This document shows positions 11,845 to 41,572 of a stretch of 64,000 bases of DNA, one piece after another. Under the pieces are notes generated by a model. That model was not told where the DNA came from, ran no database searches, and saw only the letters and a program-made list of their open reading frames with translations. Every line of letters starts with the position of its first letter. Position 1 is the first letter of the stretch. The translations under genes and the position numbers were made by a program. Source of the stretch: Methanosarcina vacuolata Z-761 (GTDB lineage Archaea > Halobacteriota > Methanosarcinia > Methanosarcinales > Methanosarcinaceae); the NCBI RefSeq assembly GCF_000969905.1, contig NZ_CP009520.1:1860001-1924000 (forward strand), read 5' to 3'.

Positions 11845-12954
11845 TCACAGTTTTCCCATAGATTTCTTATATTTCTTAATATCCAACGCTATATTCTTCC
11901 ATTTTTCCTTTTCAAGCCGTTTCAGCCCAATTTCTGCTTTTTTTGACTGGAATATGAGTTCTCCAGTTAATCTGTGATAACTGGCAAGCCGTTCCTCAGA
12001 AATAACCCCTTCCTCAACCGCCTTCAGGACAGCGCAGCCCGGCTCGTCGCGGTGAGTGCAGTCTTTAAACTTACAATTGCGGGCTGCGTCAACGATCTCG
12101 GAAAAAGCTTTCTCAAGCCCTTCTGCAGAGTCTCCGAGCTGTATTTCCCTGATCCCGGGGTTGTCTATAAGGACTGCTCCGTTTGGAAGCAGAAAGAGCT
12201 GGCGGACTGTTGTTGTATGCCTGCCTTTTTCATCGTCTTTCCGGATATCTCCGGTTTTCTGGACAGTTTCACCAAGAAAAGCGTTGATAAGCGTGGATTT
12301 TCCGACGCCTGAGGAACCGATTAATGCAACTGTTTCCCCAGGGTTGAGGTAAGGGCTAAGTTCGTCAAGCCCGGTTTTTGAAAGGGCGCTTAATGGAATA
12401 ACCGGCACGTCACCTGCAATGGACCGGATTTTTTCTACCAGCCGGGTTGGGTTATCTTCAAGGTCGATTTTGTTAAGTAAAATCACAGGGTTTGCCCCGG
12501 AAGAATACACAATGGCAAGATACCTCTCAAGCCTTCGAAGGTTGAGGTCCTTACCAACCGACGTCACGATAAAAATGGTATCAAGGTTTGCAGCAATTAC
12601 CTGCTCTCCGCTCCCGTCTCCTGCTGCTCCTCTTGAAAGGCAGGTCCTCCTGGGCAGGATATTCACAACCATGCGTGAGCCCAGTTCAGGCTGGTCAAGC
12701 AAAACGACAAAATCCCCTACCACCGGCTGCTTCCCAATTTTCAGAAGTGCACCTGAGATTCCAGCCTGTACGACAGCTCCAGAGACAAGGACCTCGCAGA
12801 CCGTTTTATGCCTTGATGCAACTCTTCCGGGAGTGTAAGGGCCTTTGTAGGCAGAAAATGCCAGTTCAAGATCTTCGTTCCATCCTGGAATTTTATCGGC
12901 GTCAGAGTGAACTGAATTATGACCTGAATTTTCCGTTTCGCTATGATTGTTCAT
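11845..12954 (-). CDS. rsgA: Ribosome small-subunit maturation GTPase RsgA
   Basis: RsgA (YjeQ) is a circularly permuted GTPase that assists late maturation of the 30S subunit. The order of motifs shows the permutation: G4 NKIDLED (about residue 160) comes before the P-loop [16 protein letters not shown] (about 213) and G3 [11 protein letters not shown] (about 262). An OB-fold lies in the first 110 residues and a zinc knuckle [14 protein letters not shown] near 295-310. Length (369) is typical. Clear homologues are mainly bacterial, so the archaeal gene was probably acquired by transfer, although it is widespread in Methanosarcina. A partly deleted duplicate lies 0.6 kb upstream. Confidence 0.95.
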
Positions 12955-13570: not shown

Positions 13571-13991
13571 TGAATTTTTCCTTTTAAAGTCGTTTAAGCC
13601 CAATTTCCGCTTTTTTGATTGGACTATGAGCTCTTCAGCTAATCTGTGATAGCTGGTAAGCCGTTCTTCTGGAATAAGCCCGTCTTCAACTGCCTCTTCC
13701 TGGGCAGAATATTCACAACCATGCGTGAGCCCAGTTCAGATTGGTCAAGCAAAACGACAAAATCCCCTACAACCGGCTACTTCCCAATTTTCAGAAGTGC
13801 ACCTGAGATTCCAGCCTGTACGACAGCTCCAGAGACAAGGACCTCGCAGACAGTTTTATGCCTTAATGCAACTCTTCCGGGAGTGTAGGGGCCTTTGTAG
13901 GCAGAAAAAGCCAGTTCAAGATCTTCGTTCCATCCTGGAATTTTATTGGGGTCACAGTGAACTGAACTTTCCTTGTCGTTATGATTGTTCA
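13571..13991 (-). pseudogene. Truncated duplicate of rsgA
   Basis: This segment is a diverged copy of the intact rsgA at 11845-12954. Bases 13571-13697 match the 3' end of the gene and 13698-13991 match its 5' end, including the [20 protein letters not shown] region. The central GTPase part (about 615 bp of the intact gene) is missing at one sharp junction. Homology continues upstream through the promoter region to about 14075. The remaining 5' frame stops after the OB-fold region. It is a segmental duplication followed by an internal deletion. Confidence 0.9.
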
Positions 13992-14659
13992 TAAGATGGA
14001 AGTATCCGATTAAATGGATAAATATTTTGATATTTGTTCTGTAAAAATTCAATTGTGCTTGAAAATTCCTTCTTATTCCGACTTGTGCTGAAGGGGAGAA
14101 AGTGATAATTTTCAATAACTTTTTCCTTAAGTCACAAGTCAAACCGCAATGCTCTAAGCCTTAAACGAAAAGCACCCGAAACAACTTTAAGCTCTTCTGT
14201 TACTGTTTCCTATGAAATATATTGTAGCTATTGCACTTTCGTGGGTTCTTTTTAGGTGATATATTCGGTTAAGATACTATCTATAAGAAATGTGCTATTT
14301 TCGTTGCTTTTTCTGTTAATCTCCAAATGTAAATCAAGATGGATAGATGATTGCAGTAGTCATTTTACGTTAACAGATTCCCTAACCGAATAGAATTACA
14401 ATTTATGCAGACGTTTCGATTAGATGCTTTACTTTTCAAGATCATTGTCACTACTATAAATTTACTTTTATAGATCAATCTAAATTTTTATTTCAGTCGA
14501 ATACCCCGCTAGCTTGCTGCGGGGTGCGCCAGCGCAACTTTGATTAATATTTATATGTTAGTGTTTAATTCAACGTAACAAAACAATAAATTCTTTAATT
14601 TAAAACAACATGGAATAATAACTAATGATAACCCGAAATACACGTAATGTGGTATAAAA
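13992..14659. other. Intergenic region with a GC-rich hairpin
   Basis: No gene is supported. The first about 85 bases duplicate the rsgA upstream region. Near 14504-14525 a GC-rich inverted repeat (CCCCGC and GCGGGG around a short loop) stands out in AT-rich DNA. A segment near 14349-14393 recurs, diverged, near 16670-16712 on the far side of the pentapeptide-repeat gene. Confidence 0.5.
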
Positions 14660-20065: not shown

Positions 20066-20086
20066 TTCCACATTAGATATTATCCC

Positions 20087-20100
20087 ACATTAGATATGCG
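20087..20100. repeat. Casposon target-site duplication, left copy
   Basis: The 14-bp sequence ACATTAGATATGCG abuts the left inverted repeat of the element and is identical to the copy at 23888-23901. Confidence 0.85.
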
Positions 20101-20180
20101 GGGATATAGGTAACTCAAATTTTTTGTACGCAAGTGCAAGAGTTACGCACAACCATATTTTTTAGAAAATTGTCCCAAAA
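20101..20180. repeat. Casposon left terminal inverted repeat
   Basis: The outer 15 bp match the right end perfectly in inverted orientation. The next 65 bp match in blocks with small gaps. Confidence 0.8.
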
Positions 20181-20479
20181 AATTAGTTTATTTTTATAAT
20201 CCCTGTTAAATAAACAACTCGAATTTTTTTACATAATTTTGTATAAAAAATATACAACCAATTCTTAAGTCTTGAATTCTTGGCTACTCTAATATCGTAT
20301 TATTTATAAATCGTTAGAATGATTCTCTTGTAAAATGACTCGTTTTTATAGTACCCTAAGACTTTACAGAACCCTAAATCAATAGCTTTAATACAAGTGT
20401 ACTATGAATGACCGGATTATAAAAAAATTTTTAAACCTTTAAATAGTTATAACGTTTTATCTATCGGGGATCGAGTTGA

Positions 20480-20942: not shown

Positions 20943-21154
20943 CTGACTTTCCGCAGATGTTCATTCAATTTTCACAATTTTTCTTGCTATCGTTTTTTCT
21001 GAAAATTACCCTGCTTATTCAAGCTTCATTGAAAGATTCTAACCTCTATTTCCGGAAGTTTCAGTTGAGATAATAATTGTAAATTATTGAACAAATGCAC
21101 AAAAACGATAGCCGAAAAAATGTTCTTTTTTTCAAGACATCTGCGGAAGGTCGG
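20943..21154. mobile_element. MITE, 212 bp, copy 1
   Basis: Near-identical to copy 2 at 22768-22979. Ends are CTGACTTTCCGCAGATGT and ACATCTGCGGAAGGTCGG, an 18-bp inverted repeat with two mismatches. This copy has no visible target duplication and sits exactly at the point where the cas1 fragment begins, so it marks a deletion or recombination junction. Confidence 0.9.
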
Positions 21155-21155
21155 T

Positions 21156-21629
21156 TTCAGGTTCCTTGTGGATCTGGCAGTTATCAGCCTTATTGAAAGT
21201 GGAGCTATGGAAAGTAAGGATTTCATAAGGACAGAAAATTACAATCTGAGGCTTAAACCTACAGGAGCCAGGAAGATTGTTAATGAGTTTTCTAATATGC
21301 TGAACAAAAAAGTAAGTTACTAGGGAAAAGAAAGCATCTGGAGTTATGTTATTTTTCTGAAGGTAAGAGAATTAGCCCATTATCTTACAAGCAAAAAGGA
21401 AAAATTAGACTTTGTTAAGCCTGGATATGAAATTGAGAGAATTGATTCTTCTGAAATAAGGCAAAAAATCCTCAATATTTCTTATGTTGATTGGAAGAAA
21501 TTAGGGTTTTCTAAAGGTACTTTACATTACATGAAGCAGAATGCCAAGTCAGATAAACCCTTTACTCTTAATGTTCATGTACTGGAAAGAGTGAATAAGT
21601 GGGAGGCATTGGTTTCAAGTCAAAAGTAA
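21156..21629 (+). pseudogene. cas1: C-terminal part of cas1 (casposase) with an in-frame TAG
   Basis: From 21162 the frame reads FRFLVDLAVISLIESG, KDFIRTENYNLRLKPTGARK and, past one TAG (21321-21323), KVRELAHYLTSKKEKLDF, IDSSEIRQKILNISYVDW and KLGFSKGTLHYMKQNAKSDK. This is the end of the Cas1 catalytic domain plus a C-terminal helix-turn-helix-like extension, as found in casposon Cas1. The three catalytic residues (Glu, His, Asp) lie before this segment and are lost, as is the N-terminal domain. The break coincides with MITE copy 1. TAG can encode pyrrolysine in Methanosarcina, so it may not be a true stop, but the gene is dead in any case. No cas2 or CRISPR array is near. Confidence 0.85.
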
Positions 21630-21946: not shown

Positions 21947-22159
21947 TTACTCCAATCTTCTTTTAAAAAAATGATTCATTTTATTGTCAAAATGTGTAGT
22001 TGATACCAGTTCCCATCCATCTTTTCCTAGTTCTTCCATGACACTTATTGTGGATCTATTTTCTAATTCGATATCTTTTCCATTTGTGAATGAAAGGAAA
22101 CAGTAGTGTCCTTGTGAAGTCTGTACTGTTTCGTAAACACAATATTCGTATTTTGTCAT
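21947..22159 (-). CDS. Small DUF4177-like protein in the casposon
   Basis: A 70-residue protein (TKYEYCVYETVQTSQG at the start, MEELGKDGWELVSTTHF in the middle, basic end). The LGKDGWELV motif and length fit DUF4177-type proteins; the copy at 9859-10044 shares the motif but little else. The function is unknown. It is the only gene inside the element, besides the membrane protein, that looks intact. Confidence 0.65.
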   Translation of the reverse strand: MTKYEYCVYETVQTSQGHYCFLSFTNGKDIELENRSTISVMEELGKDGWELVSTTHFDNKMNHFFKRRLE

Positions 22160-22545: not shown

Positions 22546-23683
22546 ATGGCAATTCCTGATTTTCAAACAATAATGCTTCCTTTATTGATACGCTTAAAAG
22601 ACAAACAAACTTATAAAATTAGTGAATTAATTGAAATATTAGCTGATGAATTTAAGCTTACCGACGAAGAAAAAGAGATGATGTTTGAAAGTGGAAATAG
22701 TAAAATATTTAGGAATCGTGTAAGGTGGGCACGGCTTTATTTGAAAAAAGCTGATTTGATAAATGATCTGACTTTCCGCAGATGTCCATTCAATTTTCAC
22801 AATTTTTTTTGCTATCGTTTTTTCTGGAAATTACCCTGCTTATTTAAGCTTCATTGAAAGATTCTAACCTCTATTTCCGGAAGTTTCAGTTGAGATAATA
22901 ATTGTAAATTATTGAACAAATGCACAAAAACGATAGCCGAAAAAATGTTCTTTTTTTCAAGACATCTGCGGAAGGTCGGATGATCCAAAAAGAGGTTATT
23001 TAGTAATTACAGAACGGGGCTTAGAGGCTCTAAAATCAAACCTTAAAAAAATAGATCTTCGTTTTCTTGAACAGTATCCTGAATTTATAGAGTTTAAATA
23101 TCCTAGTAAAGATAAAGAGGAAACTGTGACTAAAGTTTCTTATTCTGAAGATGAAAACGTTGATGAGAAAACCCCTGATGAGTTAATAGAGGAAGGCTTT
23201 TCCCTTATAAGAAAAAGTTTGGCACAAGACTTATTATCGCGATTAAAAGAAAATTCGCCTCATTTTTTTGAAAATGCCATATTACTTTTATTAGAAGCAA
23301 TGGATTATGGTAAAGGAAAAGTAACAGGAAAAACGGGGGATGACGGAATAGATGGAATAATTCATCAAGATAAACTAGGCTTAGAAACTATTATCTTTCA
23401 AGCAAAAAGATATGCAGAAGATAATACAGTTGGATCCTCTATGTTAAGAGATTTTATAGGAGCTTTAGATTTAAAAGGTGTTACAAAAGGTGTCTTTATA
23501 ACTACATCAAAATTTTGACCAAACGCCAAGGATTCTGCTTCTAAATGCCGCAAGAATATTAGGTTGATAGATGGGAGTGAATTTGTTCAATTGATGATAG
23601 ATTATAACATAGGGGTTAGTACTTACAAGACGTATAATCTCAAAAAGTTGGACTCTGACTTTTTTATAGAGTTTGACGAATAA
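22546..23683 (+). pseudogene. mrr: mrr-type restriction endonuclease split by a MITE and a nonsense codon
   Basis: Mrr enzymes cleave modified DNA. Exon-like piece 1 (22546-22767) encodes the Mrr N-terminal winged helix (LLIRLKDKQTYKISELIEIL, RVRWARLYLKKADLIND). Piece 2 (from 22985) resumes in frame as PKRGYLVITERGLEALKS and runs to the catalytic domain TGDDGIDGIIHQDKLGLE with QAKRY, the D...QxK signature. Removing the 212-bp MITE and one 5-bp duplication restores a 306-codon frame, the usual Mrr length, but a TGA at 23516-23518 interrupts it; the frame continues to TAA at 23681 (NAKDSASKCRKNIRLIDGSE, YKTYNLKKLDSDFF). Two independent lesions make it inactive. Confidence 0.93.
22768..22979. 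mobile_element. MITE, 212 bp, copy 2 (inside mrr)
   Basis: The same 212-bp element as copy 1. It is flanked by a perfect 5-bp duplication, ATGAT, at 22763-22767 and 22980-22984. Excision with one ATGAT restores the mrr reading frame exactly, which proves insertion at this site. It contains no gene; the internal frame is closed. Confidence 0.95.
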
Positions 23684-23799
23684 CCCTCATTTTTTGTAGA
23701 TAGTTCTTTTGTTATGTTGTCGATTTAGGAATTTGTACTCAGAGTAGCGTACAAAAAAATCGACTTTTTTATTAAAAATTCATTATAAAAAATAAGTCT

Positions 23800-23887
23800 A
23801 TTTTTTGATTAGGGCAACTTTTTAAAATGAATCGGTTGTGCAGATTTCTTACACATGCGTTGCGTTTTTTCAAGTTACCTATATCCC
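23800..23887. repeat. Casposon right terminal inverted repeat
   Basis: Outer 15 bp (23873-23887) are the exact reverse complement of the left end; inner similarity continues to about 23800. Confidence 0.8.
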
Positions 23888-23901
23888 ACATTAGATATGC
23901 G
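23888..23901. repeat. Casposon target-site duplication, right copy
   Basis: ACATTAGATATGCG, identical to 20087-20100. Its last three bases are the 3' end of the tRNA-Leu gene (minus strand). Confidence 0.85.
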
Positions 23902-23982
23902 AGGGGTGGGATTTGAACCCACGAAATCCTTCGATACCGGATCTTAAGTCCGGCGCCTTTGACCGGGCTGGGCAACCCTCGC
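23899..23982 (-). tRNA. tRNA-Leu (anticodon UAA)
   Basis: On the minus strand the 84-base sequence has a 7-bp acceptor stem GCGAGGG/CCCTCGC, a D arm, an anticodon stem CCGGA/TCCGG around loop CTTAAGA (anticodon TAA), a long type II variable arm of about 16 bases typical of Leu, and a T arm GTGGG-TTCAAAT-CCCAC. No CCA is encoded and no intron is seen. The casposon is inserted directly at its 3' end and leaves the gene intact. Confidence 0.95.
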
Positions 23983-39856: not shown

Positions 39857-41572
39857 TTACGATGGCAGATATTTCTCCAGATTCAGAAAAGAAAATAACG
39901 ATGCTTGTTTAGTGTCCATTTCTTCCACAATAATTTTGCTTTTTTTGGATTCTTTTTCCTGAACTACTGCAATCTTAATTTCAGACAGTTTTTCAATCAG
40001 TTGTTTCATAGAAAACCCATATATCTTTGCTTCCCAGGCCAAATATCTGTAGAAAAGCAGGCCAATCATAGCCAAAAATACATGAACCCTTATATTTTCA
40101 TCCTTGTGGTGATAAACTGGTCCTACAGGGACAAGTAAATGGTCGTTCAACAGCTTAAAATCGTCTTCAACAAGATTTTTACTGTTATATGTTTTCACTA
40201 TCTTTTTAGTATGCCACTCCTGCTTATCCGTAAACAGAATATTCTTACCAAACGTTTTTTCACACCTTTTTTCGTTTTCCTCATCAACCCAGAACTTCAA
40301 CTGAGGTTTTTTCTTACCTTCAGGAGCTGCAATTATTTCGTATTTTATGACAGTCCTGAATTTTTTCAGAATAATTTCTGAAACTTCATTTTCGACACTG
40401 CTTCTGTTTCTCTCTTTTCCTTTACTGCTTTCTAATCTTCTCTGCAGGTCTTGGAGTTGATCAATTATTTTTGATTTGTTTGTTTCATAAGTGCTTTTTT
40501 GAAGTTTGTAAGTCCCTTCATTATAGGTAATTACGGTTGTGAATTCTGTTCCGTAGAACTGATGTTTTGTCCGGCACCCAAAAATCTCGCTACCTTTTGT
40601 GTTTTTATACAAGTAATTATACCTTGAAAGTGGAACATCAAGGAGTTCCTCAGCCTGATTTGCTTTTGCGGCTCCTACAAAACTCATTTTTGAGATTACC
40701 TTTTCAATGTTATCCTTAGAGTTGTTACCTTTATCGAAAACAAGAACAAGATCTTCAGAACAGATATTTAATTCAGTCAGTCGATTTATGATTTTGTCTA
40801 CAATGCCCGAAAATTCTTCCGAATCAGGAACATTTCCAGGATAAGTTTCGTGAATAAAGGGTATATTGTTTTCATTTACAGCCAGTGATACACAAATTTG
40901 ATTTTTGTCTTTACGATGCTTTTTGTTATATCCTTTATGAAGCAGTTCACTTTTTTCATCATAATTAGTGGCAAAGGTAAACCAGTTTGATTCATCAACA
41001 AACATTATTGATGGAGTTAACCCCTTCTCAACAAGAACCCGACAAAGGTCGTCTTCAATCTTTTTCATCGTATCTGAATCAATGTAACTCATTTGGTTCA
41101 GGAAATTCTGGCAATTTAGTTTGTGAGGAAACTTCCACATGAAAGATATTGGGGATTTTTTGAACCAGTCTTCGATCCCGTTTTCACTTAAAATGCCGTG
41201 ACTTTTCCCAATTATATCGAGTAAAAGGTATTCTCCAACACTCAATCCATCTATTAATTTTTTGTCAGTATGCTTGTTTACTATGTCAATGAATCCAAGT
41301 TCTTCATTTACATGAAGGAGTGCGGCAAGCTTGCCGTACTCAAAAGACTTAAGTTTATCATAAGGCATCGATTCACATTGTTTTTTCATTTCAAGTATTT
41401 TTTCTGCACTACCCAGATAAATCTGAAAAACAGTCTTTACCTTTCCGTTAACCCTGGCAGCTTCTACAATGTACCAGTAAGGTTTGCCTTTGATAAGTTT
41501 CTTTCTCAAAAATACCATACTCTTTAATTAGGATCAACATTTATAAATACTTTTCCAATTAAATCGTTAGTA
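39846..41572. mobile_element. IS1634-family insertion sequence
   Basis: The element contains one transposase gene. Candidate short termini are TAACGATTCTATTA at 39846 and the inverted ACTAACGATTTAATTG near 41558-41573; these are weak and the true ends are uncertain. A direct repeat TTAGGATCAAC also occurs at 41527 and 41606. Confidence 0.5.
39857..41518 (-). CDS. IS1634-family transposase
   Basis: A full-length 553-residue DDE transposase. It starts VFLRKKLIKGKPYWYIVEAA, typical of the IS1634 group, and contains the DDE-type signatures IMFVDESNWFTF (first Asp), EDLVLVFDKGNNS (second Asp) and the later DGK/E region with LVEDDFKLLNDHLLVPV and a C-terminal segment HVFLAMIGLLFYRYL. It appears intact and could be active. 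Confidence 0.92.
   Translation of the reverse strand: MVFLRKKLIKGKPYWYIVEAARVNGKVKTVFQIYLGSAEKILEMKKQCESMPYDKLKSFEYGKLAALLHVNEELGFIDIVNKHTDKKLIDGLSVGEYLLLDIIGKSHGILSENGIEDWFKKSPISFMWKFPHKLNCQNFLNQMSYIDSDTMKKIEDDLCRVLVEKGLTPSIMFVDESNWFTFATNYDEKSELLHKGYNKKHRKDKNQICVSLAVNENNIPFIHETYPGNVPDSEEFSGIVDKIINRLTELNICSEDLVLVFDKGNNSKDNIEKVISKMSFVGAAKANQAEELLDVPLSRYNYLYKNTKGSEIFGCRTKHQFYGTEFTTVITYNEGTYKLQKSTYETNKSKIIDQLQDLQRRLESSKGKERNRSSVENEVSEIILKKFRTVIKYEIIAAPEGKKKPQLKFWVDEENEKRCEKTFGKNILFTDKQEWHTKKIVKTYNSKNLVEDDFKLLNDHLLVPVGPVYHHKDENIRVHVFLAMIGLLFYRYLAWEAKIYGFSMKQLIEKLSEIKIAVVQEKESKKSKIIVEEMDTKQASLFSFLNLEKYLPS

Follow-up and report, generated by a model that had tools for sequence, protein, structure and literature searches.

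How does a gene for a restriction nuclease come to lie broken twice over within a casposon, and what does its decay say about the element that carried it? This question is raised by an mrr gene of Methanosarcina vacuolata Z-761, in a stretch of 64,000 nucleotides (contig NZ_CP009520.1, positions 1,860,001 to 1,924,000) that we call the window and whose own numbering is used throughout (Table 1). Spliced together, the two mrr parts (22546-22767 and 22985-23683) give 306 codons and a stop, with the TGA at 23516 as the sole internal stop. The Mrr_cat domain scores 114 bits when this TGA is read through, the final 54 codons matching the end of Mrr_cat weakly (0.088), and the piece 5' of the TGA matches the PADLOC model mREase_IV at E = 1.4e-30. 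Residues D193, D197, Q213 and K215 are present, and none of the four varies in any of 70 outgroup rows, which comprise 68 distinct sequences; we take this D...QxK set, of the PD-(D/E)xK type, to be the catalytic residues. Both domains (Mrr_N and Mrr_cat) and the D...QxK residues match a type IV-like restriction nuclease, which the gene is predicted to have encoded formerly, and with a MITE and a TGA in its frame it is now a pseudogene of the Mrr family.

An earlier, sequence-only reading had described mrr as casposon cargo that a MITE splits and a TGA truncates, and had regained the 306-codon frame, except for the TGA, by excising the MITE with one copy of ATGAT. These parts stand: the gene has both Mrr domains, the lesions are two and independent, and the surrounding element has 14-bp target duplications and inverted ends. 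Its further claims, that the MITE is recent relative to drift in the frame and that methylation conflict may explain the loss, are not supported and are taken up below. The number of lesions depends on the TGA being real. If it were a sequencing or assembly error, the MITE would be the single lesion, and that there is one nonsense codon in a frame otherwise clean would suit such an error; however, the genome is recorded as 99.99% complete in 2 contigs, the joined frame has no further stops, and the casposase remnant of the same element has its own internal TAG, so that a nonsense change is not unique there. We consider an error very unlikely. Even less credible is that the upstream 103-aa or the downstream 130-aa ORF yields a working shortened protein, such as a DNA-binding Mrr_N fragment: both open from a possible start codon, but the Mrr_N piece continues into MITE sequence and the nuclease piece misses the end of Mrr_cat at the TGA.

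The insertion in mrr belongs to a repeat with 24 matches in its own genome, eight of them full-length at 93-100% identity and one full-length at 67%, and the pattern of its ends occurs at 25 genomic sites as against none for a reversed control pattern. It is short, with inverted ends, a flanking duplication, many copies and no transposase, as is a MITE. The seven other full copies include six with 6-bp duplications (five perfect, one with a mismatch) and one with none; the latter, the only one of the eight near-identical full copies without a duplication, is the copy at 20943-21154. The 5-bp flank at mrr is one base under the family norm, and the joined frame is unchanged either way. Within the host genome, no parent IS of the MITE was found: paired end-pattern sites lie about 195-245 bp apart, and none are spaced like a full IS.

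The casposon that holds mrr is 3,787 bp long, with inverted ends at 20101 and 23887. Both ends start with GGGATATAGGTAACT, share their first 15 nt and are alike at 70% over about 130 nt, and the 14-bp target duplications, at the 3' end of a tRNA-Leu gene, are perfect. For five euryarchaeal casposons, the duplication has been reported to overlap the target by four to seven nt (PMC4046053). A recognisable casposon end adjoins the same tRNA-Leu in four of 12 stretches fetched from other genomes of the genus (L175, L177, L178 and L179; L and G are our handles for loci and genomes, G000 being the host). That the interval contains neither PolB nor a full Cas1 had raised the suspicion that "casposon" is a misreading, which was dropped given the target duplications and terminal repeats. 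The 152-aa ORF near the left end probably encodes a membrane protein and matches none of the non-core ORFs in the 28 casposons delimited below. Just outside the left target duplication, at 20066-20080, is an imperfect additional copy of it, perhaps from an earlier insertion.

Table 1. Features of the casposon and its mrr gene in window coordinates
Feature	Position	Strand	Evidence or remark
Left target-site duplication	20087..20100	.	ACATTAGATATGCG; identical to 23888-23901
Left casposon end (terminal inverted repeat)	20101..20229	+	GGGATATAGGTAACTC...; inverted match to 23753-23887; compared with the MetMaz-C1 repeat (PMC10359463, accessible text)
Left-bay cargo ORF, 152 aa	20480..20938	+	ORF; sub-threshold Pfam matches only
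MITE copy at deletion junction	20943..21154	+	ends by pattern; flanks GGTAA / TTTCA, no target duplication
Casposase (Cas1-solo) remnant	21155..21626	+	codons 250-407 of an intact 407-aa relative, 92% identity, one internal TAG; Cas_Cas1 E = 1.1e-5
Right-bay ORF, 70 aa, DUF4177-like	21947..22159	-	DUF4177 E = 2.7e-5, 24.7 bits, cut-off 25
mrr 5' part (Mrr_N)	22546..22767	+	Mrr_N E = 8.7e-21
MITE flank duplication, left copy	22763..22767	.	ATGAT; identical to 22980-22984
MITE in mrr, 212 bp	22768..22979	+	ends CTGACTTTCCGCAGATG / CCGACCTTCCGCAGATG; genomic repeat
MITE flank duplication, right copy	22980..22984	.	ATGAT; identical to 22763-22767
mrr 3' part (Mrr_cat nuclease domain)	22985..23683	+	Mrr_cat E = 3.5e-24 for the piece preceding the TGA
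In-frame TGA, codon 252 of 306	23516..23518	+	joined mrr frame
Right casposon end (terminal inverted repeat)	23753..23887	-	inverted match to left end
Right target-site duplication	23888..23901	.	ACATTAGATATGCG; reaches 4 nt into the 3' end of tRNA-Leu
tRNA-Leu (anticodon TAA), casposon target	23898..23982	-	ARAGORN

Where a casposon would have a complete casposase gene, this one has only the 3' portion with its TAG. From the left end to this remnant is 1.05 kb, compared with 5.7-8.9 kb from the left end to the start of the casposase in 28 delimited relatives. Against three of these (L179, L218 and L219), the window casposon aligns just in the 3' region of the casposase and at the ends, with no similarity over polB-HNH-p213-HTH, and the scanned ORFs of the element yielded no match to PolB; given these absences, it reads as a non-autonomous derivative. 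Nor does the host genome contain a complete casposase gene at E <= 1e-20, only two fragments (that of the window and one at C2:2447153). The host's one full Cas1 adjoins two 46-nt repeats, 93% alike and with starts separated by 71 nt, an arrangement resembling the border of a CRISPR array.

We propose that the Mrr nuclease gene was carried as right-bay cargo of a MetMaz-C1-like casposon that inserted at the 3' end of tRNA-Leu(TAA). Two copies of the MITE, lying in the left bay and in the casposase gene respectively, would then have recombined, deleting the polB-HNH-HTH-casposase block and stranding the element, as its one junction suggests. In a genome that yielded no intact casposase gene, the cargo would neither travel nor be selected with the element, and mrr would have taken a further copy of this MITE as well as a nonsense mutation; the scheme implies no order of immobilisation, MITE and TGA. 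With its terminal repeats well formed, the casposon may still be mobilisable in trans if a casposase arrives from elsewhere. A mini-casposon with ends of this type has proved mobile in M. mazei (PMC10359463). A sister element with both MITEs in place was not found among the relatives examined. We hold the decay of a stranded casposon to be the probable account of the dead mrr gene, and do so with good confidence.

Orphan 3' pieces of casposase genes occur elsewhere in the host genome (G000:C2:2447153-2447491 and 3020348-3020512), and in other genomes of the family many of the casposase fragments listed likewise cover the 3' part of the gene. A single in-frame TAG is found in the fragments at G013:C8:141331, G036:C24:126496 and G037:C54:14312, as well as in the G000 remnant; in pyrrolysine-using archaea, we presume, such a codon could be read through rather than be a lesion.

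The sequence-only reading had suggested that the loss of mrr may stem from a conflict with the host's own methylation. In such a selective account, an Mrr made toxic by cutting host-methylated DNA would favour inactivating mutations. Two independent lesions within an otherwise conserved frame and six N6_Mtase (adenine methyltransferase) matches above cut-off in the host accord with this view, and toxicity in Dam+ E. coli is on record for modification-dependent nucleases from other families (PMC11037411). However, the same genome retains an intact Mrr (44% identity, 314-aa open frame) and a further Mrr_cat ORF without stops, and the casposase and core genes are gone too, so that the decay is not specific to mrr. 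A conflict with the host would predict the purging of Mrr-family nucleases; since two intact Mrr_cat genes persist beside the six N6_Mtase matches, decay without selection fits better. Hence we regard methylation conflict as improbable, although a conflict specific to the target of the window Mrr alone is possible, and the decay of a casposon that has lost its mobility genes is the simpler account. Another Mrr_cat gene of the host, at G000:C2:2542865-2543188, has one in-frame TAA.

The nearest intact homologue that we found is in Methanolobus sp. UBA118 (L047:8001-8918), with 78% amino-acid identity over 306 residues to the window pseudogene. As judged from the ORFs, the Methanolobus gene sits between fumarase-like and DNA polymerase D-like genes and has no casposon genes as neighbours; a pattern search of its surroundings gave no casposon ends. 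Between the two sequences, dN/dS is 0.09 with dS at 1.4, near saturation, and the differences number 46, 30 and 132 at the first, second and third codon positions, values that speak for constraint until recently. The outgroups comprised 70 rows, or 11 rows (10 distinct sequences) when limited to the same genus, and left out a stop-containing relative (L130) as well as matches with fewer than 270 aligned residues. Among 69 columns conserved in at least 90% of the 70 rows, two are changed in the window only, one in Methanolobus only and four in both. Amino-acid changes average 9.8 for the window and 13.5 for Methanolobus with all 70 rows, but range over 12-14 and 9-12, respectively, with the same-genus rows only. 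Because the sign of the rate difference flips with the choice of outgroup, we limit our claim to a recent death with little drift: the frame appears, from these alignments, to have died recently, with little or no excess change, so that both lesions look young, and the slightly higher number of window-branch changes under same-genus outgroups possibly reflects some drift after inactivation. That the MITE is recent relative to drift elsewhere in the frame is therefore not borne out, there being little drift to compare it with at the conserved columns.

The window mrr is absent from all 29 other genomes of the genus that were searched, and with no second copy among them the MITE and the TGA cannot be ordered. 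Across 30 genomes of the genus including its own, the search gave any match in 19, and the other long matches are 42-45% identical; in IMG/VR there was no relative of the gene, and of six pattern stretches none was confirmed. The chromosomal Mrr of the genus (G000:C2:4360341 and relatives; 12 long matches in 12 genomes, 10 of them without stops) is of the same family and length as the window mrr, but at 42-45% identity it would be a distant paralogue and not the source of the casposon copy. That the gene is the genus's own chromosomal mrr, moved locally, was ruled out, since the host paralogue is 44% identical and the Methanolobus homologue 78%.

A full casposase used as query against 111 genomes of the family gave matches at 1e-20 in 76; many of these matches are fragments, and the weaker ones may include CRISPR Cas1. 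Survey loci were drawn from the long casposase matches listed, leaving out G055 (two), G084 and G075, and 40 of the 41 loci examined contain 45 casposase matches of at least 370 residues, which by their coordinates are 43 distinct genes. Twenty-eight casposons could be delimited by a 14-bp duplication (26 perfect, two with one mismatch) together with inverted ends; for the other 15 casposase genes the scan found no ends, some being cut by the end of the locus or contig. The core polB-HNH-p213-HTH-casposase is present in 28 of 28, with polB split in four and HTH in two. On each side of the core, every one of the 28 has at least one non-core ORF of at least 130 aa, so that neither bay is empty; bay ORFs were called mechanically, and in L217 two of the three left ORFs lie inside polB and are IS-like. 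The window mrr, located between casposase and right end, occupies a cargo position seen in all 28 relatives, and it is one right-bay immune passenger.

One of these casposons, L219, comes close to MetMaz-C1 of Methanosarcina mazei Go1: its terminal repeat is the same, its duplication reads as the reverse complement of that published, and it has five core plus three cargo ORFs compared with eight reported genes; MetMaz-C1 has cas1, polB and other genes, duplication ATAATCTTAATGCG and repeat GGGATATAGGTAACTCAAAAAAACGCAACGC (PMC10359463). The window casposon resembles MetMaz-C1 in its 14-bp duplication and its terminal repeat, but measures 3.8 kb, lacks polB, HNH and HTH as well as casposase codons 1-249, and carries different cargo (the 152-aa ORF, the 70-aa ORF and mrr). 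The casposon of G009, a genome of the same genus as the host, has the duplication and repeat of MetMaz-C1. In G011 (L179:1195-15077), two casposons stand in tandem, the right end of one abutting a 14-bp duplication common to the next, complete element, and both casposase genes are full-length and without stops.

Of the 16 casposon pairs with the most similar casposases (90-96% identity), 13 have no cargo in common at 1e-5, and the three that do are the type I group L234/L241/L243, in which L241 and L243 are 95% identical in M, 92% in R and just 38% in S. Any cargo is common to 18 of the 378 casposon pairs. Where casposases are at least 75% identical, eight of 57 pairs have right-bay cargo in common, which counts against full turnover. 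In six sister pairs, the aligned part opens no more than about 95 bp from the 3' end of polB and closes no more than about 175 bp from that of the casposase gene; in L251/L252 and L245/L247 it also skips part of the HTH region. Outside the core, similarity at the tips extends over about 30-43 nt in L251/L252, L226/L227 and L245/L247 and about 40-110 nt in L219/L217 and L219/L179, with none in L219/L218 at the alignment cut-off used.

What fills the bays is often immune. The right bay of five casposons (L228, L232, L234, L241 and L243) holds type I restriction-modification genes, with M in five of five and R in four of five at 1e-40 in single scans and S by tally; the 1,074-aa ORF of L234 has no PADLOC match at 1e-40. 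L242 carries a type IIG enzyme (4.8e-284), the left bay of L249 a CBASS cyclase (4.8e-105) with a 2TM effector (7.7e-58), L223 a PifA-like KAP protein on the left and SIR2 on the right, L230 a KAP protein, L217 an NsnB/OLD-like ATPase, L179 an RT_III-A reverse transcriptase (3.5e-105) and L218 an Mrr_cat protein (Pfam 8.4e-10), while L226 and L237 match the candidate families PDC-S31 and PDC-S14, respectively. In total, at least 14 of the 28 casposons have at least one known or candidate immune gene (PADLOC, 1e-10 or better), four of them (L218, L226, L230 and L237) wholly or mainly through candidate families; since single scans covered 32 of the 101 cargo proteins, the count of 14 is a minimum. 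Many cargo proteins have no defence match: in one batch of 10 scanned singly, eight had no match, one matched TPR only and one a candidate family, and in another batch of 10 one was without a match. Two left-bay ORFs, L179:5627-6610 and L228:1953-3026, are 43% identical and have no PADLOC match; the first has a RES domain, which the tally places in two cargo members.

For comparison, the cargo (101 proteins) and the flanks (129 proteins) were scanned set by set, an approach that yields tallies per model and not counts per protein. Before the scan, 28 of 157 flank ORFs were set aside as lying in or beside a neighbouring casposon (all eight of L226, all seven of L252, four of L245 and three each of L179, L227 and L229). 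No PADLOC model matched more than one flank protein, whereas at least 25 models matched five cargo proteins; almost every one of these 25 is a model of type I M or S, so that about ten proteins account for them. Flank defence genes comprise matches to BrxB, BrxC, BrxL, REase_I and GajB models, one protein each, and ResIII and HSDR_N are found in four and two flank proteins compared with five and six cargo proteins. Resting on set tallies rather than a formal enrichment test, the richness of casposon cargo in immune genes is suggestive.

On balance, we lean toward regarding the casposons of Methanosarcinaceae as carriers of immunity cassettes, with a fixed core, two bays that are always filled, wholesale and fast replacement of cargo, and a richness in anti-virus genes. 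Each bay would run from a short terminal repeat to the 3' end of the adjoining core gene, polB or casposase, and recombination between tandem casposons, as in L179, could reshuffle left and right bays. The mrr pseudogene itself would be a case of ordinary decay that points to a testable pattern of two cargo slots, often immune in content. If this is true, transposons thought to be the source of the CRISPR integrase also shuttle other immune systems, the broken mrr preserves one of these passengers as a fossil, and casposons offer a natural laboratory for the pairing of integrase and immune cargo in the genetically tractable Methanosarcina.

The transposase of Tn7-like transposons differs from the casposase, a Cas1 homologue. 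Tn7-like transposons with defence cargo combine, as here, a transposon core with variable immune cargo (PMC8649781), but casposons use the Cas1 homologue and here have two bays, one on each side of the core. Variable gene content was recognised in the founding paper of 2014, which, in its accessible text, describes genes "implicated in defense functions" and their horizontal acquisition, lists Sir2-like, KAP and methyltransferase genes with one restriction nuclease, and reports that IS elements parasitise casposons (PMC4046053). OLD and HEPN nucleases were found in thaumarchaeal casposons in 2019 (PMC6563490), a review treats methyltransferases and tandem casposons (PMC9939771), and one group mentions an unpublished casposon survey (PMC9966878). 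In the literature searched, consisting of partial texts and without the 2016 GBE paper and the 2017 review, we found no account of the exact two-bay architecture, of its turnover between near-identical elements, or of complete type I restriction-modification, IIG, CBASS or DRT-type genes as casposon cargo.

Elsewhere in the window, a minus-strand ORF at 13777-14142 repeats the N-terminal part of the neighbouring RsgA-like GTPase (11845-12954), which by ORF reading is a partial gene duplication, and a transposase-like ORF of 553 aa, presumably IS1634-like, lies on the minus strand at 39857-41518.
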